A stretch of 55,610 nt of DNA from a virus, in the IMG/VR virus record IMGVR_UViG_3300043429_001367, positions 1 to 55,610 of that record; one strand, given 5' to 3'. Shown one piece after another: positions 1,352-42,197 of this stretch. Position 1 is the first letter of the stretch, and each line of letters starts with the position of its first letter. A program made the translations under genes and the position numbers. A model generated the notes under the pieces. The model was not told the origin of the DNA, ran no database searches, and saw only the letters and a program-made list of their open reading frames with translations.

Positions 1352-2153
1352 AACTAAAATTGTGACCATCTTTGGTCATGAACTCACGCTTGAAAAAAGA
1401 GTCTGCCTTGGTGGATGCAAAAAGGAGTTCTGGGTTTGCCCGGAAAGTCAGGCTGTCCATGCGAGAAGCGATTGCCTGTTTGTCTGCAATGTTCCCATAG
1501 ATGATATCCCTGAACACATCATGAAGCGCTATGACAAGGATTATGATCGTGATTCATGGGAGCAGGAGAAAAAGGACTTTTCGCGCAATCTTTTTGCCAA
1601 GACCAACAGCAAGACCAAACCGCCAAAGAAGACCGCATTCCTTCCCAAACCAAAACGAAAGCCCAAGGAAATAGATACGGGAAAGATTGAGCGTGAGAAA
1701 AGACGCTGGAACATTGCTGTTTACCGGGTAAGACGTATCCTGCAAAGGCGTGAAGCCATGCCACGGTTTAGGGAGTCGGTTGCATGTATAGCCTCTGCTG
1801 TTGTGAAAAACAAAAAGAACTTCAGCATCAAATGCTTTTCAAGTCTTGTCGGTCTTGATAGAAAAACGCTTCAGTGCTGGATTCATGTGAAGTCGGATGT
1901 TCTTGATCATTTGACTGTTTACGATGGAAACTTTTTGGCTGCAAAGAAAACAAGGGAAATATTGAAGTCACAGCCTGATGGTGGTTTTGATATGAACGAG
2001 GTTTTTATTCAGGAGTCCATCAAGTGCATGATGCCACAAAAAAGACAAAGAAAAAAAGAAATGGAAAAATGCTCGAATGGTTCCTCGATAACCAGCAAAT
2101 CTGGAAGGATCAAAGCCTATCGGATGAAGATAAAGATAAAATCCGTTTCCTGA
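1296..2153 (+). CDS. Basic protein with Cys-rich motif, unknown function
   Basis: A 285-residue protein starting at ATG 1296, chosen because GAGGGG lies 4-9 bases upstream; in-frame TTG/ATG alternatives exist nearby. N-terminal cysteines in the arrangement CLGGC...C...DC...C could bind zinc. A long Lys/Arg/Pro-rich middle is followed by a possible helix-turn-helix around DRKTLQCWI. The last 40 residues are low-complexity basic sequence overlapping the next gene, so the functional C-terminus may be shorter. The position between terminase genes suggests a role in packaging or DNA binding, unproven. Confidence 0.6.
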   Translation: MITKMEPPQLTQVSSQGIETKIVTIFGHELTLEKRVCLGGCKKEFWVCPESQAVHARSDCLFVCNVPIDDIPEHIMKRYDKDYDRDSWEQEKKDFSRNLFAKTNSKTKPPKKTAFLPKPKRKPKEIDTGKIEREKRRWNIAVYRVRRILQRREAMPRFRESVACIASAVVKNKKNFSIKCFSSLVGLDRKTLQCWIHVKSDVLDHLTVYDGNFLAAKKTREILKSQPDGGFDMNEVFIQESIKCMMPQKRQRKKEMEKCSNGSSITSKSGRIKAYRMKIKIKSVS

Positions 2154-2263
2154 TGCACATGAACGGGATCAACCATAAGGATACGCTGTTTATGTTTGAC
2201 GACATGAGAAAGGAAGCCTTGATGATTTTAGGTGAAACGCATGATTATAACGGACAAATTTAA
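2069..2263 (+). CDS. Small hypothetical protein before terminase
   Basis: A 64-residue protein from ATG 2069; an in-frame GTG at 2024 would add 15 basic residues that only mirror the overlapping gene. It is acidic and helical (MLEWFLDNQQIW start). It overlaps the upstream gene by 85 bases and the large terminase start by 23 bases, so the three are probably translationally coupled. No family recognised. Confidence 0.5.
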   Translation: MLEWFLDNQQIWKDQSLSDEDKDKIRFLMHMNGINHKDTLFMFDDMRKEALMILGETHDYNGQI

Positions 2264-5200
2264 ATCATATTCCCTATTCACCGATGAGGAACTTCAAAAC
2301 AGTATCGCTCAGGATATCGACAATATGAGCGAGGCTGAGCGTGCGGTGTTTTTTGAACTGCTTAACAATCCTCAGTTTGAAGGGGATTTGACCGCACTGG
2401 AACTTGATCGGGATATGGTATCGGTTGAGCAGTGGATTGAAGATGATTACTACATGGGAGCCTTGGGCAAGAGCATCTATAAGCCATGGAAGGATGATCT
2501 TCTTGAACTCTTTGAATCATGTGCCTACGACACGGCTGTCATTCAAGGGGGTATTGGCTGTCAAGCCGAAAAGACGCAGATTATGACAGACAGTGGATTG
2601 ATTGCGATGGGGGATCTAACCTCATCACACAAATATCTGTCTTACGACAATGGTAAAGCTAGATTTGTGCAAGGCACACACGCTTTTGTAAAAGGCAAAG
2701 ACATGCTTTACAAGGTAAGGCATGCCTCTGGTGAATTTGAAGCTACAGCACATCATAAGGTTTTATGTGCTGATGGTTATTACAGGCGTGTTGATCAGCT
2801 TGCTGATGGTATGCAGATTGTTTCGAGCGATAAATTTCAAGATGATGTTTCATGTGATCTTTCTGTGACGAAAACACTTCGAGGTTTTCTGGATCATTGT
2901 TTCTTGGATTCTCATCTATGTGATGAACTACTTCAGTTGGCAAAAGATATCGGTCAAGTTTCTTTTCCATCACAAGTCGATGCTCAGGCATTGTCAGCTT
3001 TTTACCGTAAAGTGGATGCTCCTTTGGAACACTCACTTTTACATACTCAGTCCTGGTCTTTCCTCCCGTCCAAAAAGGGTTTTTGGAACCCTTCGGTGGA
3101 CCGGCTTTTCTTTGATTCAGACCTTGCCTATGCAAAAATTTTTCAACAGAGTTATGGGATCTTCCAACGGATGTTGCAATCTCGGAAAGTGGATGTCCTG
3201 CCTCGTATAGCGCAAGCACTTTCTCTTTTTGTTCAGAAGACATTCCCCGAGGATTTGCAACGCCTTTACGTCCCCCTTCTGAACGCCTTGGTAAATCATT
3301 TTTCAAAACATAACGAATCACAATATCAGGTGAAGGACGGCCAATCGCTTTCATTATCTCTTCATAGGATTTTTGTCCGTCTGATAGCTCATGGATTTGT
3401 GCTTTCTCGTTCTCGGTCAAAGGCTTTTGAAAATAGGGCAGGTCAAGCTTGCGAACCCAGGCTCTCACCGTCTCAGGCGATTTCCCAATTACTGTTGCGA
3501 TGTCGTCAATCTTTGTTTGGAAAGAGGCCATTTTCTTTATCGTGTCTATCTGCTCTTGGGTTAATTTCAAACTCACTTGATTCTGTCTCCTTTGGTTTTT
3601 CCAAAGTAATGTCGATAGAAAAAACAGTTACAGATTGGTATTGGGATTTGCAAGTGCCAATGACCAATAATTATGTGTCAGGTGGTGCGGTGCATCACAA
3701 TTCAGGTAAGTCAACTTTTTCACACCTTGCCGTTTTGAGGATGCTCTATGAAGCATCTTGTCTCAAAAATCCGGCTGTCAGCTATGGCCTTGCTCCCAAC
3801 TCCATCATTGGTTTTTGTTCACTGGCAAAATCCAAGGAAACCGCACGGCGGGTTGTGTTTGAGCAGATTGCTGCGAAGATTCAGGAGTCGCCTTATTTCA
3901 AATATGAGTTTGCGCCTGTCAAGGATGTGAAGGATGAAATCATATTCCCAAAGGGACTTGCAATCATTTGCGGTTCATCAACGGACACATCCATCATCGG
4001 TATGAACATCTTCGGTGGAATCATCGACGAAGTGAACTTCTGGGGAAAGGTGAAAAAGACCAACCTCAATTTTGGAAAGCACTGGGGAACGGAAAGCAAG
4101 TCAGGTAGGCTCTTTGATAGCGTTCGCCGAAGGATGAAGTCGCGCTATATCAAAAAGGGAAAACTCCCTGGCATCCTGATGCTTATCTCATCGAAGACAA
4201 CCAAGGACAGTTTTACTGAGCAGTTCATCAGAAAAGAAAAGGCTCTCGGCAATAACTCCACCTTTGTCCGTGACCGCTCAATTCTTGACATGAAGCGTGA
4301 CAGCTTTGGCAGTAACACCTTCAAGGTCCTGATCGGAACCGTGGACTATCCCTCGCGTATCCTCATAGAAGGTGAGGATATTTCAAATCTGACTGATGCC
4401 ATGGTCATTGAGATTCCCGATGATTTCCGTGTGGACTTTGAAAACAACCTGGAAGAGTCGCTGCGTGATATTGCGGGTGTTTCAACCATTGCCATATCCA
4501 ACTTCATTTCCAAACTTGAAAAAATCAACGAGATGGTTGACGACAGGTCCCATCCTTTCCAGTGTCCGCTTCTGCCTGATCCAACCATTTGGGATAGCCG
4601 CAAGCCATACAAAATCAACTGGCATGCGCTCTGCACTCAAAAGGACAACGGTGAATGGGTTCCGAAACTCAATCCCGATGCACCACGTCATGTCCACTTC
4701 GATCCGGCTTATACGGGTGACGCCTTTGGTCTTTGCATTGCGCACATCGGGGGAATGCAGGCCGTTCAGAAGGAAGGTGAGATAATCGAGTATCAGCCTA
4801 TCTTCATCGTCGATTTCATTCTGGCCATACAGGGAAGCAAGGAAGAGGAAGTCATTAACCGCAATGTGCGGGAACTCTGTTATGAGTTTTCCAATCATGG
4901 ATTTCATTTGGCTGAGTTCTCAATGGATACTTATCAGTCAAGGGAAATGGCTCAAAGCCTTGAGATGCAGGGCTACAAGGCAGGCATCTACTCGGTCGAT
5001 ACGGGGATTTCAAGCAAGGGTGAGAACGTTGTCAATACAGCGGTCGGCAAGGTTCCAAAAGCGAAACAGGCTTATTGGTATTTGCGCTCTGCCATATATG
5101 AAAATCGTGTCAAATGTTATGATTATCCAAGACTCCTGATGGAACTGAGGAAACTGGAAGACACGCCTGAGAAGGTGGATCATCCCGAGGGAGAAAGCAA

Positions 5201-5516
5201 GGACTTGGCTGATTCACTGTGCGGTGTGGTCTGGACTCTTTTCAGATCGAAAAACCATGCGGAACTGCCTTTGCCTTCAAAGGGTGTGACAGTGAATCCC
5301 GGCTCCGAGGTGGAAACTCTTGCGGACTATGCGGAAAGTCTGAAGCAGGATATGTCAGTTGAAGCGGGTTCAAGTCAGGTGATCGAAATCAGGCAGACAA
5401 AGGTTTATGAGAAAAAGAAGCATCAGACCGTGTCACCGAAGTATCAAAAGGTTTCGACCAATGGCACAGTCAAGGACCTGACCATAAACACCGAGGACTA
5501 TCTGGTTCGCGGCTAA
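2241..5516 (+). CDS. terL: Terminase large subunit precursor containing an intein
   Basis: A 1091-residue precursor; ATG 2241 is chosen over GTG 2232 because TAGGTG sits just upstream. After removal of a 381-residue intein the product is 710 residues, a normal size for a T4 gp17-like packaging motor. The ATPase P-loop GGIG-SGKST is formed only after splicing. Walker B is GGIIDEVNF (Asp/Glu codons at 4026-4031). A C-terminal RNase H-like nuclease shows three acidic sites: HFDPAYTGD (4701), SMDTYQS (4926) and KDLADSL (5202). The enzyme pumps DNA into proheads through the portal and cuts concatemers. The portal gene follows directly. Identity is near certain from motifs and order. Confidence 0.93.
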   Translation: MIITDKFKSYSLFTDEELQNSIAQDIDNMSEAERAVFFELLNNPQFEGDLTALELDRDMVSVEQWIEDDYYMGALGKSIYKPWKDDLLELFESCAYDTAVIQGGIGCQAEKTQIMTDSGLIAMGDLTSSHKYLSYDNGKARFVQGTHAFVKGKDMLYKVRHASGEFEATAHHKVLCADGYYRRVDQLADGMQIVSSDKFQDDVSCDLSVTKTLRGFLDHCFLDSHLCDELLQLAKDIGQVSFPSQVDAQALSAFYRKVDAPLEHSLLHTQSWSFLPSKKGFWNPSVDRLFFDSDLAYAKIFQQSYGIFQRMLQSRKVDVLPRIAQALSLFVQKTFPEDLQRLYVPLLNALVNHFSKHNESQYQVKDGQSLSLSLHRIFVRLIAHGFVLSRSRSKAFENRAGQACEPRLSPSQAISQLLLRCRQSLFGKRPFSLSCLSALGLISNSLDSVSFGFSKVMSIEKTVTDWYWDLQVPMTNNYVSGGAVHHNSGKSTFSHLAVLRMLYEASCLKNPAVSYGLAPNSIIGFCSLAKSKETARRVVFEQIAAKIQESPYFKYEFAPVKDVKDEIIFPKGLAIICGSSTDTSIIGMNIFGGIIDEVNFWGKVKKTNLNFGKHWGTESKSGRLFDSVRRRMKSRYIKKGKLPGILMLISSKTTKDSFTEQFIRKEKALGNNSTFVRDRSILDMKRDSFGSNTFKVLIGTVDYPSRILIEGEDISNLTDAMVIEIPDDFRVDFENNLEESLRDIAGVSTIAISNFISKLEKINEMVDDRSHPFQCPLLPDPTIWDSRKPYKINWHALCTQKDNGEWVPKLNPDAPRHVHFDPAYTGDAFGLCIAHIGGMQAVQKEGEIIEYQPIFIVDFILAIQGSKEEEVINRNVRELCYEFSNHGFHLAEFSMDTYQSREMAQSLEMQGYKAGIYSVDTGISSKGENVVNTAVGKVPKAKQAYWYLRSAIYENRVKCYDYPRLLMELRKLEDTPEKVDHPEGESKDLADSLCGVVWTLFRSKNHAELPLPSKGVTVNPGSEVETLADYAESLKQDMSVEAGSSQVIEIRQTKVYEKKKHQTVSPKYQKVSTNGTVKDLTINTEDYLVRG
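2743..3576 (-). CDS. HNH homing endonuclease encoded antisense inside the intein
   Basis: A 277-residue protein from GTG 3576, with a strong AAAGGAG at 3587-3593 and 9-10 bases of spacing. Three helix-turn-helix-like segments (about residues 20-45, 68-92 and 118-152; e.g. SEIATSVGRSHNSVEKFL) precede an HNH domain (about 196-247). That domain has EHRLVMEK, then VVHHIDENPRNNDPENLEVF and the final KDHMKHH: metal/catalytic His 218-219, Asn 226-231 and His 241-245. This is the classic HNH_3 layout of phage intron/intein endonucleases. The last about 20 residues overlap the sense-strand block B of the intein. It probably cuts intein-free terL alleles. Expression from an independent antisense transcript is inferred. 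Confidence 0.9.
   Translation of the reverse strand: MSLKLTQEQIDTIKKMASFQTKIDDIATVIGKSPETVRAWVRKLDLPYFQKPLTENEKAQIHELSDGQKSYEEIMKAIGRPSPDIVIRYVLKNDLPRRSEGGRKGVANPRGMSSEQKEKVLALYEAGHPLSEIATSVGRSHNSVEKFLHRQGLNQRKAGPPKGSKNPFWTGGKTRTEYVKVSVPKEHPLYGKKLTMPEHRLVMEKKLDRYLLPTEVVHHIDENPRNNDPENLEVFSSQKDHMKHHLEIYRSKQSAYHQQADQHACNNHQHIKPYDVL
3587..3593 (-). promoter_or_regulatory. Shine-Dalgarno of the antisense endonuclease
   Basis: On the minus strand AAAGGAG lies 9-10 bases before the GTG start. It lies within sense-strand intein coding sequence, so it is not expected there unless the antisense gene is translated on its own. It also decides the GTG start. Confidence 0.8.
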
Positions 5517-5534
5517 AGTGAACTTGAGTTCACT
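5517..5534. repeat. 18-bp dyad repeat, copy 1 (perfect)
   Basis: AGTGAACTTGAGTTCACT has 8-base perfect arms around TG, directly after the terL stop and 20 bases before the portal start. It is the most symmetrical member of a family of six similar dyads (also at 14722, 29460, 37478, 42356 and 52689). The size and symmetry resemble a dimeric repressor operator or a ParB/parS-type site. No U-tract follows, so it is not a terminator. Confidence 0.75.
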
Positions 5535-5553
5535 CGAATGGAGAAAAATTGAA

Positions 5554-7239
5554 ATGGGTTCCATAGTCGGAAATTCACTTGATCTAATTCGCACGGTTTT
5601 CAATCGAAACAATGTGCTCCCTTTGCCTTCCACCTATTGGGATGCAGCCGCTCGTGGCAGCTTTTTTATGCAGGGTTATGGACTCGGACCTGTGACCGGG
5701 GGAAACAGTCAGCTTGCGGATAGCGTGCGCCTTGAAGAAGACCTGATGACACGCTATGCGGACTACGATGAAATGGACCAGTTTCCTGAGTTGGGAGCCG
5801 CCATTGATCTTTTCGCTGATGATGCCACGGTCCAGGATGTCCTGACTGGAAAGTCGATGTGGTTTGAATCGGATGATGAAACGGTTGGTCACATCCTGAA
5901 TGATATGCTCGATGTCAATCTCAAGGTTGAAAATGAACTTTGGGAAATCGCGCGTTCACTCTGCAAGTATGGCAATGAGTTCATCGAACCAATCGTTCTG
6001 GATCAGGTCGGAGTCGTGAAGCTGAATCACGTTCCTCCCCCATGGATGCGCCGTATCGAGGATATCAACGGAATCCTTTATGGCTACATGCAAGATCCAG
6101 CCATGCAGTTTTCCATTGATACGCGCACCTTCCTTGAACGAGTCAAGAACAAGGGAGCGACCGTCATGGAACTCCCGGTGAACATGGGACAGGGCTGGCT
6201 TCAGGTTTATGAGCCTTGGGAAATTGTTCACATGCGGCTGCGTTCAAGGGCACGCCGGGACCTTTATGGATATAGCGTTGTGGAAGCTGCACGCTATGCC
6301 TGGAAGCGTCTTTCGATGATGGAAGACGCGATGCTCATGTACAAGGTCACTCGCTCACCACAGCGATACGCCTTCTATGTTGATGTTGGTGATGTTCCTC
6401 CCAATCAGGCGCGTGGTTTACTCAATCGCATCAAAAACGATTTCAAAAAATCAAAGTTCATTGATCCGACAACGGGCAAGCCTTCCTTCCGTTATTCACC
6501 GCTTTCAGCAGAGGATGATTTTTTCATCCCTGTTCGCAAGGAAAGGAAAGGCACTGAAATAGAAGTTCTTGCCGGTCCTGAAGGGCAATCGGTTGAGGAT
6601 GTCGAATATTTCCTGAACAAGATCTTTGCTGCTCTCAAGATTCCAAAATCCTATCTCGGTGCTGATGAGACGGTTGGTCGCGCCAACCTCAGTCAGCTTG
6701 ATGTTCGCATGTGTCGCTCCGTTATGCGCATACAGCGTGAAATCAAAAACGGCTTCAGGCAGATAGGCCGTGTGGATCTTGCAGCGAAGAACATAGATCC
6801 AGACCGCACGTCATTTGAATGTCACATGGTTATTCCATCGGGTGTTTTTGAATTGGCTCAAATAGAAGTCGAGAAGGCCAAGCTGGATTTGGCGTCAGCC
6901 TATCGTGATGCCAGTTTCAGTCAATATTGGATTTATTCAAAAGTTTTGGGTTTATCCGATGAAGAAATATTACAGATTCAAAAGCAACGGGCAAAGGAAG
7001 GTGAAGGTGACTTCACAGCCGAGGATGTTGGTCTTATCCACGATCGACTGCCCAGGATGGTCGAGCGTTTATCGACTGATTACGATAAGCGGGCTGACAG
7101 ACATCAGAAGAAAATATTGGATGAAATCGAGTCGGGTAATACCGCTCTTGGCCGACGACTCAGAGAACTCAAGCATCTCACTCAGGAAATTAAATCAGGC
7201 ATTGCTAGACAGACAAGAGTCAATGGACGAAGAAAATGA
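5554..7239 (+). CDS. Portal protein (T4 gp20-like)
   Basis: A 561-residue protein; ATG 5554 is chosen because GGAG lies about 10 bases upstream, whereas GTG 5518 sits in the dyad repeat. The early motif TRYADYDEMDQFPELGAAID followed by acidic DLFADDA is typical of gp20-like portals. Later come EPWEIVHMRLRS, RSPQRYAFYVDVG and an YLGADETVGRANLSQLDVR-type stretch, all characteristic of this family. It forms the dodecameric ring at one capsid vertex through which the terminase packages DNA. The C-terminus is charged and helical. The neighbour upstream is terL; the next gene overlaps its stop (ATGA). Confidence 0.92.
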   Translation: MGSIVGNSLDLIRTVFNRNNVLPLPSTYWDAAARGSFFMQGYGLGPVTGGNSQLADSVRLEEDLMTRYADYDEMDQFPELGAAIDLFADDATVQDVLTGKSMWFESDDETVGHILNDMLDVNLKVENELWEIARSLCKYGNEFIEPIVLDQVGVVKLNHVPPPWMRRIEDINGILYGYMQDPAMQFSIDTRTFLERVKNKGATVMELPVNMGQGWLQVYEPWEIVHMRLRSRARRDLYGYSVVEAARYAWKRLSMMEDAMLMYKVTRSPQRYAFYVDVGDVPPNQARGLLNRIKNDFKKSKFIDPTTGKPSFRYSPLSAEDDFFIPVRKERKGTEIEVLAGPEGQSVEDVEYFLNKIFAALKIPKSYLGADETVGRANLSQLDVRMCRSVMRIQREIKNGFRQIGRVDLAAKNIDPDRTSFECHMVIPSGVFELAQIEVEKAKLDLASAYRDASFSQYWIYSKVLGLSDEEILQIQKQRAKEGEGDFTAEDVGLIHDRLPRMVERLSTDYDKRADRHQKKILDEIESGNTALGRRLRELKHLTQEIKSGIARQTRVNGRRK

Positions 7240-11619: not shown

Positions 11620-13284
11620 ATGTTTAAAGCGAGTGAGATTCATCGCCTTATGTCACTGACCGAGAGTTATTTTTCCGAGGTAAAGGGAATAACTCTTCAG
11701 GAACTTCTTAAGATGGAACAATCAGCCATGATAAAGGTTGTGCGGTCCATGGATGCTCTGAAGGATAAACCCATTCTGACAAAGCGTGTCTTTGAAGGTA
11801 TTGCCATGATCAAGTGGATGGAAAGTCATGGCGGGAAGGTTCGCAATCAGGAACTGAAAGCACTTGAGAAGGTATTTCCATTTAAGGATGTGCAGGCTGC
11901 AATGTCTGCAGCAGTTCAGGCTTACAATAAAAAGATTGGATATGATCCAATTTCCATGACTCAAAAAAAAGAGTCAGTTGAAGAACGCATGATGTCCGGC
12001 GCAGCTGGTAACGTGAACTTCAAGCCTCGCGGTGCCGGTCAATCAACAAAGAAACCAATGAAGGCTGATGATGAGAAGAAAATTGCCATTCTCAGAGCAC
12101 AGTTATTAAATACGCCTTTGGCTCAGAAGCAAAAGATCATGGATCAGATTGCTGCGATTCAATCGCGTTATGAATCCAAATCGGTTGTTGAAGGCTCTGA
12201 AAAGATCCGTTCAGCCCTTGTCAGTGCTATCACTCAATATGACAAAAAGCAGCTGGCAAAAGCCAAATGGCACAATCCCAATGCGTTGAATCTTTATTTG
12301 GATGCCGTTGATGCCACGATGAGTGATTATGAGAAAACCAATGACCTTGAAAAATCTCTTCGCAGAAATTTCAATGACCGTCTTTTGGATTGGATGCTGA
12401 AAGCGGCCAAGCCATATATGATTGAATCCAAAGCTGTGAAAGGCAAGTGGGCACAGCTTGCAGAGTCGCATTTCCAAATGGAAGGCGGTCCAGGTTCAGG
12501 CGGTCAATACCTGACGCGCAAATTCAAAATGCCAATGTCGCCTTATATCTCAGTCGGCACGCGCAAGGGTATCCTGAAGAATATGCCATTCGATCTTGAG
12601 GATGTTCCTCTGTCCAAGATCACGCATGTTGCCCAGGCCAAGTTTGTTCCGCAGAAGGTCAAGAACCTCTGCAAAAATCCTGATGTCATAACGAAATATC
12701 CTGTCTGTCTTTTGAAGATTCCAAGCCAGGATTGTTATCATGTCATGGACGGACATCATCGTTTCCTCGCTGCTCAAAAGCTGGGAATCGAAAATCTTCC
12801 GGCCAAAGTCTGGCTCAAATACGAGGAAGAACCCGCGCCGGTTGAAACACCTTCGGAGCCAGCGGCTGAAGGTGAGCCTTTGCCATTGGATCAGGCTCCT
12901 GGCGATCAGAATCCCGATAATCCGATGGATATGGTTCCAGCCGAGGCGATGCCTTTGCCTGAACCAGAAGCAGCGCCAGAGCCGAATCCTGCGACTCTGG
13001 TGCCCGATGATTCCGCAAATGCGATGAGTGAGATTCCTTCCGAGGTTCCGAGTCCTGATGGAGCCGCGCCTGATGCTGTCATTCCAGCTGAACATGATCA
13101 CTATGAAGTCATGTGTGAGAAGTGCCAGAAGGTGACAGAGTCGTGTGGCTGCATGGCAGAGGAAAAGGTGAAACGCACCACTGTCTGCGAGGCATGCAAG
13201 TCCATGTCATTCATCGAATCCAAAAAACTGCCAATGAGTCTCAAGGAAGCCCTGAAAGTTCTGGGATCGAAAGGAAGTTTTTGA
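11620..13284 (+). CDS. ParB-like domain protein with C-terminal zinc ribbon
   Basis: A 554-residue protein; ATG 11620 has AGAGGA upstream. The N-terminal 290 residues are helical and charged. GGPGSGG (around residue 290) is a signature often found before enzymatic domains in phage virion proteins. The next segment ends in HVMDGHHRFLAAQKLG, the conserved DGHHR box of the ParB/Srx nuclease-like fold. Then comes an acidic Pro-rich linker and two CxxC pairs (CEKCQKV...CGC...CEACK), a likely zinc ribbon. It lacks an obvious ParB HTH. Role may be DNA/nucleotide processing or virion structural; uncertain. Confidence 0.75.
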   Translation: MFKASEIHRLMSLTESYFSEVKGITLQELLKMEQSAMIKVVRSMDALKDKPILTKRVFEGIAMIKWMESHGGKVRNQELKALEKVFPFKDVQAAMSAAVQAYNKKIGYDPISMTQKKESVEERMMSGAAGNVNFKPRGAGQSTKKPMKADDEKKIAILRAQLLNTPLAQKQKIMDQIAAIQSRYESKSVVEGSEKIRSALVSAITQYDKKQLAKAKWHNPNALNLYLDAVDATMSDYEKTNDLEKSLRRNFNDRLLDWMLKAAKPYMIESKAVKGKWAQLAESHFQMEGGPGSGGQYLTRKFKMPMSPYISVGTRKGILKNMPFDLEDVPLSKITHVAQAKFVPQKVKNLCKNPDVITKYPVCLLKIPSQDCYHVMDGHHRFLAAQKLGIENLPAKVWLKYEEEPAPVETPSEPAAEGEPLPLDQAPGDQNPDNPMDMVPAEAMPLPEPEAAPEPNPATLVPDDSANAMSEIPSEVPSPDGAAPDAVIPAEHDHYEVMCEKCQKVTESCGCMAEEKVKRTTVCEACKSMSFIESKKLPMSLKEALKVLGSKGSF

Positions 13285-13859
13285 TGTATATCGAGATTTC
13301 CTGTTATGGTGATTTCAATCCATTCAGAAAGATCCTTGAAACGCTTGCCGGTCCGAAGCGTGATTCCTTTGTTGATCTTTGCTGTTACGATGGTGGACAG
13401 ACAAAGTATCTCGATTTCAAGGAAAAGACTTTTGTGGATGTGATCAAGCCTGAAGGTGCGGTTTATCCGGGTGAGTTTGTGGAAACTGATGTTCTCGGTG
13501 ATCATCCTGTTTTTCAGAAGCGCTATTCGGTCGCTTATTGCCTGGATGGAATCGAGCACCTTTACAAGGCTGATGGATACAGGCTCCTTCAAAAGATGGA
13601 GTCGATCGCTGATCGGCAAATCCTTTTTACGCCGCTCGGTGAATACATGGTCAATCCCCATGACCCTCATCCCCACTCTCATAAATCGGGATGGTATCCA
13701 GGGGACGCCGAAGGCTATGGTGTGGTTGTGGCTCCCAACTGGCATCCGACACTGAATGTCGGTGCGTTCTTCATGATAAAATGCCCGGATATTGAAAATG
13801 AGTTCAAGCGAATCAAGGCTGAACTTTCCGCTGATCCTTATTTTCAAGTTGTTCAGTAA
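13284..13859 (+). CDS. Methyltransferase-like protein
   Basis: A 191-residue protein; ATG 13284 overlaps the previous stop (TGATG) and has AAGGAAG upstream, so the longer in-frame upstream extension is rejected. FVDLCCYDGGQTKYL resembles motif I of class I methyltransferases, and SVAYCLDGIEHLYKADGY matches the post-strand-4 'D-x-IEH' segment of Methyltransf_11-type enzymes. The His-rich NPHDPHPHSHKSGW stretch could bind metal. Substrate unknown; other sugar/methyl genes nearby suggest glycan modification. Confidence 0.75.
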   Translation: MYIEISCYGDFNPFRKILETLAGPKRDSFVDLCCYDGGQTKYLDFKEKTFVDVIKPEGAVYPGEFVETDVLGDHPVFQKRYSVAYCLDGIEHLYKADGYRLLQKMESIADRQILFTPLGEYMVNPHDPHPHSHKSGWYPGDAEGYGVVVAPNWHPTLNVGAFFMIKCPDIENEFKRIKAELSADPYFQVVQ

Positions 13860-21793: not shown

Positions 21794-22035
21794 TGATTGG
21801 TTATATGTGCAATGTTTGCAGGCGTCAGACAGATTGGGTGGACGCAGTGATTGGGGATGTTGGACCAGAACCTTTGCCCAAAGGCTGGATGAGAATTGAA
21901 GTCTGTGTCGGTCCATATAGTTATAAGTTCTGGCATGTGTGCTCAGAGGACTGTCGAGCAACAATAAAAAACCCGGCTCTGAAAGCCGGGTTCATTAGTC
22001 AAGTTCTCAGGAGTTCGCTTACCGAACCTTTGTGA
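21793..22035 (+). CDS. Small CxxC protein running through a terminator
   Basis: An 80-residue protein with CNVC near the N-terminus and CSEDC in the middle, a probable zinc site. Its start overlaps the previous stop (TAATG). The last 25 codons read through a hairpin that terminates the convergent lipoprotein gene, and its stop lies inside that gene. The functional part may end near residue 60. Confidence 0.6.
   Translation: MIGYMCNVCRRQTDWVDAVIGDVGPEPLPKGWMRIEVCVGPYSYKFWHVCSEDCRATIKNPALKAGFISQVLRSSLTEPL
21963..21993 (-). terminator. Terminator of the collagen/C1q-like lipoprotein gene
   Basis: On the minus strand AACCCGGCT, loop TTCAG, AGCCGGGTT, then TTTTATT. The 9-base GC-rich stem with T-tract is strong. 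It is embedded in the 3' coding end of the opposing small gene. Confidence 0.8.
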
Positions 22036-22996
22036 TGGTCACGCTGTTATATTCAGCGCCGTTGCTGAGAAGGGTTGGGTCAGTGCTGCGGCTCATATAG
22101 ACCTTGATATGAACCGTGTCGCCAGGATTCAGTTCGACTGATTTTGCAGTCTCAGCCGAGCAGGTCAAGGTCACAGCAGGCATCGGGCTGTTCTTTTGCG
22201 ATACCAGAGTTCCGTTCACATAAATCGCAAGACCGCACACGCTACCTGCTGTCCAGGCGTAAACATCGGTTGTGATACCGGCTGTGATCGAATAAACACC
22301 TTTTTGCTTGGCTGTAAAGTCACCAGTGCTTGTGCTGTATTCCATCTGGTTATCATCAACAACATCATTGAAGATCAGTTTGTTCCAGCCTGTCGTAAAG
22401 TCAGTTGTGAGGTTATTGGTTTTTGCACGGATATAGCTTTCAGCGCCAACCGATCGGCTGAGTTCCTTCCAGCCATTTCCGATGCTCACAAATTCAAACA
22501 CGTCCCCAGCCATGGTTACGAAGTTCCCTTGACCTGAAAGTTTCAGGGTTGAGGAATGAGCGATGGTTGTGACGCCGGTAAAGTAAAGACTGATTTTCTT
22601 ACCGGCAGGCTGAGAAGCGATGGATGAAAGGTTTGCATCGGACACTTCCATATAGAGAGCATCAGCGTCCTCACCGGCTTCGCCAGCCGCACCTGCAGCA
22701 CCGGCTTCGCCTTGATCACCTTTGTCGCCTTTGTCGCCTTTGAGGGCTTCACGGTTGACAGCTTCAGGACTGAGTTCTGATTTCTGCCATTCCTTGGATT
22801 TGCAGACATAAAGAACGCCTTCTTCCTCAACCATGACCAGCTGGTTTTCGCGGGAAGGGTTACAGGCGGGCATGTCGGCTTTCAGTGCCACAGTGAAGGA
22901 ATTAGTGTCGTCGCTGGCCACTAATTCCGACGAACCTTGATCGGCACCGCACGAAATCAGAATCATACTTACGAGGGGTAAAACGATGGTTTTCAT
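22019..22996 (-). CDS. Lipoprotein with collagen-like repeat and C1q-like head
   Basis: A 325-residue protein. Signal MKTIVLPLVSMILISCGADQ with lipobox LISC. A short N-terminal segment is followed by a Gly-x-y run (KGDKGDKGDQGEAGAAGAAG), a possible trimeric collagen-like stalk. The C-terminal 140 residues (from ESYIRAKTNNL) show the C1q/TNF jelly-roll pattern: ...LIFNDV...GDFTAKQKGVYSITAGI..., LAIYVNG, LNPGDTVHIKVY, and the closing YNSVTITKVR. Such heads are common in phage tips and bacterial surface proteins and bind ligands as trimers. Lipid anchoring makes it a host-surface display protein. Confidence 0.85.
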   Translation of the reverse strand: MKTIVLPLVSMILISCGADQGSSELVASDDTNSFTVALKADMPACNPSRENQLVMVEEEGVLYVCKSKEWQKSELSPEAVNREALKGDKGDKGDQGEAGAAGAAGEAGEDADALYMEVSDANLSSIASQPAGKKISLYFTGVTTIAHSSTLKLSGQGNFVTMAGDVFEFVSIGNGWKELSRSVGAESYIRAKTNNLTTDFTTGWNKLIFNDVVDDNQMEYSTSTGDFTAKQKGVYSITAGITTDVYAWTAGSVCGLAIYVNGTLVSQKNSPMPAVTLTCSAETAKSVELNPGDTVHIKVYMSRSTDPTLLSNGAEYNSVTITKVR

Positions 22997-40554: not shown

Positions 40555-40575
40555 TAAGCATCATGGAGGATACCG

Positions 40576-42018
40576 ATGCAAGCCAAGAATTTTATGCGTC
40601 AAAATCGTTCGATCAAGGATGAAGGCTACGTTCAGGCACTTGTGCGCAAGTGGAGTCCCTTGCTGGAAGGCATCAACGTTGAGCATACGCGCAACGTTAT
40701 GGCTGTTCTCTATGAGAACCAAAGCCAGCATCTTCAGTCCATGACTGAAGAAACACGTTCGACCAACGTGGGCTCGTTTTTGAAATTTGTGTTTCCCGTT
40801 CTTCGCCGGGTTTGGCCTTCTCTCATCGCCAATGAGATTGTGTCGATCCAGCCAATGACCGCACCAATCGGCGGTATCTTTTACTATGACCTGAAGTACG
40901 GCACCACAAAGGGCACCGTGACTGCTGGCCAGACTCTGATCAAGGATTTCAATCGCTACTATTCGAGCGAAAAAATTGATGCAGAAATCATTGGCACTGG
41001 TGCGGGCACCAGCTTTGCATCGACGCTGGACTTTACTCCTGTTCGCGTTTCGACCGTTATCGTCAAGGGCTACAAAGGCACCGATGGCAGCCTTGTATCC
41101 GGCGCTGACAACGGCTCGGGCACAATCACAGGAACAGGCGTTTCCGGTATCGTTGATTACGATACTGGCTCCATCTCGGTTGACTTCACAACTTCCGTAA
41201 GTGCAGGAACTGATGTAACTGTCACCTACGAATACAATAGTGAGTGCAACAGCAACATCGCTCAAATCAACATCGACATCCAGCTGCTGGAAATCCGCGC
41301 GACCACTCGCAAGCTGAAAGCAAAGTGGTGTTCGGAAGCTGCTGACGACTTGAAAGCTTTCCATGGCATTGATGCTGAAGCTGAAATCGTTGCTGGTATC
41401 GCTGCTGAAATCGCTTTGGAACTCGACCGTGAAATCATCGAGGATCTTCGTGTTGGTGCGACTGGCTACAACGGAAGCTTTGCAGCTTCTCCTGTTCCGA
41501 ACTACCACACTCAGGTTGATCATTATCGCAACATCCTGACCGAAATCACCAAGATGAGTAACCGCATCCACAAGAATTCTTTGCGTGGTCCTGCGAACTT
41601 CCTTGTGACTTCGCCTGATGTGTCTGCGATCATCGAGCAGCTGGAAACTCATGGTGACTTCCGTCCCATCTATGCTCCTGCAAACAGCGACACACGCGCA
41701 CCTGCAGAGCAGCCACACACCTTCGGTGTTCAGAAGATTGGTACTCTTTCCAGCAAGTATATCTGCTACAAAGATCCATTCTTCCCAGTTTCCTCGAACG
41801 TTGGTTCGGGAAGTGGTTCCGGTCAAATCCTCGGTGGTTACAAAGGTTCGACCTTCATTGATGCAGGTTATGTGTGGGCTCCATACATTCCTCTGCAATC
41901 GACTGCGACCTTCCTTAACCCTGAAGACTTCGCATTCACCAAAGGCTTGCGCACACGGTATTCTAAAAAAATGGTTCGCTCGGAGTTCTATGGAACCATC
42001 ACTGTTACTGGCCTTTAA
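40576..42018 (+). CDS. Major capsid protein (T4 gp23-like)
   Basis: A 480-residue protein with GGAGG upstream. Early LVRKWSPLLEGINVEHTRNV, then FPVLRRVWPSLIANEIVSIQ and PMTAPIGGIFYYDLKYG, is the classic gp23/gp24-type core; an inserted domain (GTDGSLVSGADNGSGTITG) sits in the middle, and LKAKWCSEAADDLKAFHGID and VTSPDVSAIIEQLE close the HK97-fold body. It builds the icosahedral shell. Followed by a strong terminator, in line with high expression. Confidence 0.95.
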   Translation: MQAKNFMRQNRSIKDEGYVQALVRKWSPLLEGINVEHTRNVMAVLYENQSQHLQSMTEETRSTNVGSFLKFVFPVLRRVWPSLIANEIVSIQPMTAPIGGIFYYDLKYGTTKGTVTAGQTLIKDFNRYYSSEKIDAEIIGTGAGTSFASTLDFTPVRVSTVIVKGYKGTDGSLVSGADNGSGTITGTGVSGIVDYDTGSISVDFTTSVSAGTDVTVTYEYNSECNSNIAQINIDIQLLEIRATTRKLKAKWCSEAADDLKAFHGIDAEAEIVAGIAAEIALELDREIIEDLRVGATGYNGSFAASPVPNYHTQVDHYRNILTEITKMSNRIHKNSLRGPANFLVTSPDVSAIIEQLETHGDFRPIYAPANSDTRAPAEQPHTFGVQKIGTLSSKYICYKDPFFPVSSNVGSGSGSGQILGGYKGSTFIDAGYVWAPYIPLQSTATFLNPEDFAFTKGLRTRYSKKMVRSEFYGTITVTGL

Positions 42019-42040
42019 TTCCCTATAGAGGGAAAAGCAG

Positions 42041-42071
42041 CCGGGAGCTAAACACTCCCGGCATTTTTTTT
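42041..42071 (+). terminator. Strong terminator after capsid gene
   Basis: CCGGGAG (42041-42047), loop CTAAACA, CTCCCGG (42055-42061), then CA and eight T. Confidence 0.85.
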
Positions 42072-42197
42072 GTGTGCTTCCATAAGCTTTGATCAAAAAA
42101 TCGGGCAAACTTCAATCCCCAGCCTATTTCTGATATCCTTTCCCCATGTTGCTTTTCTGAGGCTTCTGTTTGCTAATCTGTGTTTTTTGGTCCTGGA

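Follow-up and report, generated by a model that had tools for sequence, protein, structure and literature searches.

In a canonical mobile intein, a Hint splicing domain with Cys1, HN and Ser+1 is inserted into an essential motif of the host protein, and the endonuclease is an in-frame domain placed between splicing blocks B and F. In the fractured genes of Dassa et al. (2009), split inteins reportedly flank a free-standing endonuclease gene. The ShiLan domain is a hidden HNH insertion in mycobacteriophage methylases (Arsenault, Gosselin and Gogarten 2025, PMC11855218), and segD of phage T4, described as free-standing, is a homing endonuclease gene that runs against the direction of essential late genes (PMC2988022). 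Introns with reversed open reading frames also exist. The title of a further report (Gosselin, Arsenault and Gogarten 2025, bioRxiv 10.1101/2025.01.02.630785, 'Actinobacteriophage Inteins ... Non-Canonical Architecture') suggests unusual intein-endonuclease arrangements, with actinobacteriophages as its scope.

The locus described here lies in the terminase large subunit gene (terL) of a T4-like phage. It resembles a canonical mobile intein in its Hint domain, its Cys1, HN and Ser+1 residues, its insertion into an essential motif and the position of its endonuclease between blocks B and F, but departs from it in lacking an in-frame endonuclease domain: the opposite strand instead holds a gene for the enzyme that has a start of its own. 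As in the fractured genes, the endonuclease is encoded separately between intein halves; there, however, two polypeptides make up the intein, whereas here intein and host gene form one uninterrupted frame and not the two that define a split intein. The ShiLan HNH gene likewise overlaps the open frame of an invaded phage gene, and its product is a distant relative of the HNH protein found here (36.5% over 85 aa), but it lies on the same strand in a shifted frame without a splicing domain, in contrast to the splicing domain and opposite-strand HNH of the present locus. The segD gene is also a phage homing gene antisense to essential late genes, but it is described as free-standing and not nested in an intein. 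No description of an antisense endonuclease within an intein was found in the literature searched, a coverage from which the 2025 bioRxiv preprint and Dassa et al. (2009) were absent. It is likely that the arrangement has not been described, with novelty moderated by possibly overlapping content in that preprint.

Anatomy of the terL locus

The stretch of DNA analysed, hereafter the window, is the 55,610-nucleotide IMG/VR record IMGVR_UViG_3300043429_001367, which encodes a gp20-type portal, a gp23-type capsid protein and a prohead protease. Two further IMG/VR contigs represent the same phage, with 99.8–100% identity across 8.4–9.6 kb. Elsewhere in the window, the minus strand at 22019–22996 encodes a collagen-repeat protein with a C1q/BclA_C-like part, probably a virion fibre. 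The terL frame (2232–5516, plus strand) has a probable start at ATG 2241 and is open across the entire insert. The features of the locus are listed below in window coordinates, with ^ marking the splice boundaries.

2241–2558, plus strand: terL N-extein, ending ...AVIQGGIG, the first half of Walker A (open reading frame and alignment to the intein-free relative L011).
2559–3701, plus strand: intein of 381 aa, splitting the terL Walker A motif as GGIG^C...HHN^SGKS (splicing residues, Intein_splicing match, Hint-fold model matching solved mini-inteins).
2559–2828, plus strand: N-terminal splicing region, blocks A and B (pLDDT 94–98; region conserved in relatives; silent rate depressed under the antisense tail).
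3588–3701, plus strand: C-terminal splicing region, blocks F and G (pLDDT 84–98 at residues 341–381; Y372, G376 and N381 invariant).
3702–5516, plus strand: terL C-extein, beginning SGKSTFSH (match to phrog_2, terminase large subunit).
2743–3576, minus strand: HTH-HNH homing-type endonuclease gene, 277 aa, GTG start (Pfam HTH_38, HTH_23 and HNH_3; PHROG HNH endonucleases; family-core antisense dN/dS 0.18).
2854–2982, minus strand: HNH_3 domain with catalytic H219, N231 and H241 (Pfam match at residues 199–240; pLDDT 95–98).
3579–3600, minus strand: Shine-Dalgarno sequence AAAGGAG, 10 nt upstream of the GTG (sequence; enriched family-wide).

All class 1 residues are present in the intein, namely Cys1, block B His66, block F D363, HHN381 and Ser+1. 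The Pfam family Intein_splicing (PF14890) matches the sense protein with E-values of 2e-6 to 2e-5 and covers the correct ends, at a score below the curated cut-off. An AlphaFold model of the sense intein, made with the family alignment, has pLDDT 94–98 for residues 1–90 and 84–98 at the C-terminal end, with values mostly of 28–75 between. Foldseek matched this model to solved mini-inteins of DnaB, RecA, DnaE and DnaX (approximately 1.6–2.9 Å over about 100 columns, probability 1.0). The ends of the sense intein are thus predicted by the model to form a Hint fold, which meets the class 1 intein criterion.

On the minus strand, the matches to HTH_38, HTH_23 and HNH_3 are all above the Pfam curated cut-offs. 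The AlphaFold model of this protein (mean pLDDT 86.6) shows HTH units together with an HNH domain, and its C-terminus is a long helix; a Foldseek search with the full model returned mainly HTH proteins, with a weak match to I-HmuI (probability 0.90, E 0.53). The minus frame extends into block B: it stops at 2743, and the histidine codon of that block is at 2754. Across the antisense gene the intein frame contains no stop codons, versus 8 and 15 in the other two plus-strand frames. A scan of window positions 2200–4200 for sigma-70-like promoters found none, against 3.0 expected in shuffled sequences; the host and its promoters are unknown.

The original prediction, made without database searches, had placed an intein with splicing blocks on the plus strand at 2559–3701 and, opposite it, a 277-aa HTH-HNH protein with a GTG start and AAAGGAG. 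Both parts held, the former on residues, fold and Pfam ends and the latter on sequence, Pfam and PHROG matches, as did the claims that the sense frame stays open across the antisense gene and that the endonuclease C-terminus overlaps block B.

Recurrence and alternative alleles

Searches with the single proteins returned the same phage only, and relatives surfaced via the terL extein, the mini-intein and alignments. In genome contigs, terL as query found nothing; the intein alignment found two loci. Scans of IMG/VR with family alignments recovered 71 loci for the intein; for the HNH, there were 458 relatives, of which the 80 best were taken. Of 176 HNH-core matches across the fetched loci, 166 have an open frame facing them, always in the same phase, with antisense codon position 3 opposite sense codon position 2; among the 80 nearest relatives, fetched by HNH alone, the same holds for 77. 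From these loci a family set of 77 representatives less than 70% identical was defined, for which an open sense frame was required. The catalytic H, N and H are invariant in all 75 aligned members. The intein ends in HN in 60 of 61 cases (EN in the other), Ser, Thr or Cys occupies the +1 position in 61 of 61, and Cys1 is found in 42 of 49, some start positions being uncertain. A Shine-Dalgarno match of at least 5 nt precedes 42 of 77 antisense genes, versus 9 of 440 control in-frame start codons within the cores; some members have no recognisable one.

Most of the 60 exteins scanned match terminase large subunit families, 38 of them phrog_2 alone. The usual insertion point is G^(S/T)GK(S/T) of Walker A, with GK^T among the alternatives. 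The family is seen at this second Walker A boundary in L130 (1916–2935, minus strand) and L169, suggesting adaptation to several target sites. Two members, L039 (4783–5403) and L051 (1429–2037), are mini-inteins of 203–207 aa in which the antisense HNH is much shortened and the splicing ends are intact; these may be degenerate stages of a homing cycle. The HNH family also has free-standing members that are not nested (L143, L163 and L170).

The antisense-HNH intein is present in nine cultured phages: Pectobacterium phages Taid, Pappous, Koroua, Amona, Ymer, Abuela and Sabo, Dickeya phage Setonix and Pseudoalteromonas phage PHS3. When the mini-intein and the antisense protein were used as queries against phage records, the matches adjoined on opposite strands in all nine. 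One gene of the pair is always omitted or truncated in the records examined. In those of Taid, Amona and Ymer, terL is labelled 'hypothetical protein' and the HNH gene is unannotated. In PHS3 (L018, KX912252) the HNH gene is annotated and terL is cut to 4844–6019, apparently because the annotator called the antisense gene; the full intein-containing frame, 3893–6019, is open from 3893.

The terL site is occupied in different ways among relatives of the window phage. Sister phages L005–L009 carry an intein of the LAGLIDADG kind; in L005 (4358–5572) and L009 (4798–6003), for which terL is 74–81% identical to that of the window, these in-frame inteins occupy the exact codon boundary of the window intein. 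Their LAGLIDADG-like domain matches Pfam slightly under the curated cut-off. The site is empty in L011 (GGIGSGKS), while L014–L016, with more distant terL, have the antisense-HNH kind. In the extein tree L014 pairs with L011, whose site is empty, and L009 is the partner of the window, and allele type and ancestry therefore disagree; antisense-HNH, LAGLIDADG and empty alleles interleave on the terL tree at one codon boundary. The Pectobacterium terL has Klebsiella and Serratia relatives that lack an intein. From sequence alone, we infer that such patchiness is the pattern expected from homing, or from repeated gain and loss. Intein and HNH distances are correlated (Spearman 0.68), but because both track terL equally well, the correlation does not tell whether intein and HNH were inherited as a pair or each along with terL.

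Selection on each strand

With the antisense protein and codon usage held fixed, 3.8 sense stop codons are expected in the 134-codon HTH-HNH core of the window and none is seen (P(0) = 0.003). Synonymous permutation of the cores of the 77 representatives gave 313 expected sense stops, with none observed, a result that is partly by construction because an open sense frame was the condition for entry. An unselected comparison is provided by the loci fetched through HNH, of which 77 of 80 are open, versus non-nested HNH genes with 3–11 stops in the same phase.

Openness is nevertheless weak evidence, because a 481-codon chance antisense frame, in another phase, lies opposite the capsid gene of the same genome. 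This frame (40561–42108, minus strand, offset 0, its codons in register with those of the sense gene) faces the gp23-type gene at 40576–42018 (plus strand) and has no PHROG match. It is likely a shadow of codon usage; antisense stops at offset 0 are scarce across the tested genes (2.2 per 100 codons versus 5.0 in other phases). The window also holds a pair of near-coextensive frames at 13101–13859, of 248 aa on the minus and 245 aa on the plus strand, neither of which matches PHROGs. Openness of a frame proves little by itself, and the proof of the antisense gene comes from homology, recurrence and the pattern of substitution.

In 16 independent pairs, substitutions at sense codon positions 1, 2 and 3 number 207, 570 and 152 in the core, the signature of antisense coding, and 47, 26 and 161 in blocks F–G. 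Ratios of dN/dS (sense, then antisense) are 0.10 and 4.39 for the extein, 0.09 and 4.17 for the C block, 0.14 and 7.7 for the N region ahead of the antisense stop, 0.60 and 0.52 for the N region under the antisense tail, where silent rates are depressed on both strands, and 2.29 and 0.18 for the HNH core. The values above 1 are expected wherever the opposite strand is constrained and do not denote positive selection. The pattern switches at the antisense stop codon, a sign that the whole length of the antisense frame encodes a genuine protein. Selection is thereby partitioned: the middle is conserved in antisense only, block G and the exteins in sense only, and true dual coding is confined to the endonuclease C-terminal tail where it overlaps splicing blocks A–B. 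In the HNH core, what is preserved of the sense strand is its freedom from stops and not its sequence.

Of the remaining claims in the original prediction, an expectation of about 11 stop codons was naive and is corrected to the 3.8 given above for the core. That both strands are under selection held in part, the core being only stop-free in sense and dual coding being limited to the tail over blocks A–B. The statement that no counterpart was known failed, since there are dozens of instances, including the cultured phages. Two results named as refuting, a minus frame without HNH homologues and a sense middle conserved as a domain in related inteins, were not met: HNH relatives exist, and the sense middle is unconserved.

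A proposed mechanism and its alternatives

The best explanation is a mobile class 1 intein that has its homing endonuclease encoded apart, by an antisense gene, which we consider very likely (probability approximately 0.88). The anatomy, homology, strand-specific selection, recurrence and the empty and alternative alleles are shown by sequence and statistics. The steps that follow, including splicing, cleavage and its site, homing, and antisense transcription and its timing, are inferred. TerL and intein would be translated as a single precursor, from which a Hint domain formed by intein residues 1 to ~90 together with the final ~40 would excise the intein, joining GGIG to SGKS and restoring Walker A. 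The opposite strand, at the canonical endonuclease position, would encode a separate HTH-HNH enzyme with its own ribosome-binding site. During co-infection this enzyme may act on the partner phage, cutting or nicking its terL near Walker A if no intein is present there, and repair would copy intein and antisense gene together into the cut terL. Codon choice would hold the sense frame stop-free, the sense middle being otherwise an unconserved linker. A likely benefit of the antisense placement, again inferred, is that the endonuclease could be made without late terL expression; the decoupled expression and antisense regulation of terL that were originally proposed remain inference only, the promoter scan having found no sigma-70-like candidate.

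Four other readings were considered. In the first, nested parasitism, an independent homing endonuclease invaded a mini-intein in antisense and spreads for itself, using the intein as a safe harbour. The free-standing HNH members, and the mini forms that keep their splicing ends despite a much-shortened HNH, can be cited for it. It is very unlikely, as phase and position are identical in 77 diverged representatives, and the antisense C-terminus shares block A–B DNA in most members, which is hard to square with independent movement. A second reading, also very unlikely, holds that homing has been lost and that the antisense gene today serves chiefly in regulation, with its RNA or protein repressing terL. 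An overlap opposite an essential late gene could interfere with it, and the protein carries several HTH units; however, H, N and H are kept in every aligned member and the alleles are patchy, which fits active nucleases.

The view that the antisense frame merely shadows an intein domain encoded in sense is all but excluded. Long chance antisense frames do occur in this genome, as opposite the gp23-type gene, but the contrast in core dN/dS, the HNH homology with its invariant residues, the Shine-Dalgarno enrichment and the low-confidence modelling of the sense middle all speak against it, and the reading was rejected on the substitution pattern. A group I intron with a reversed frame, or another non-splicing insertion of the kind suggested by the hidden HNH of the ShiLan element (PMC11855218), can be set aside almost entirely, since the insert ends are a conserved Hint domain (Cys1, HN, Ser/Thr+1) under strong sense purifying selection and an Rfam search of window positions 2000–4400 found no match at E up to 1, the ground on which a conserved group I intron RNA structure, and with it the intron, was rejected.

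The mobile intein with an antisense endonuclease gene may also be read more boldly, and we lean modestly towards this: a large, unrecognised lineage of phage inteins would keep its homing endonuclease gene antisense, always in the same phase, with one piece of DNA specifying the endonuclease tail on one strand and the N-terminal splicing blocks on the other, and expression of the endonuclease independent of late terL would be permitted. Such pairs are readily overlooked when one gene is omitted or shortened, as in the records examined, where the PHS3 terL is truncated and the Pectobacterium HNH gene is absent. They are natural, large-scale antisense overlapping genes in which selection can be measured for each strand, including in a region that codes on both. 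Across a diverse family, antisense-HNH inteins break the textbook rule that the endonuclease resides within the spliced-out protein, and they offer a testable reason for this design, namely that expression of the endonuclease would be freed from that of the host gene.
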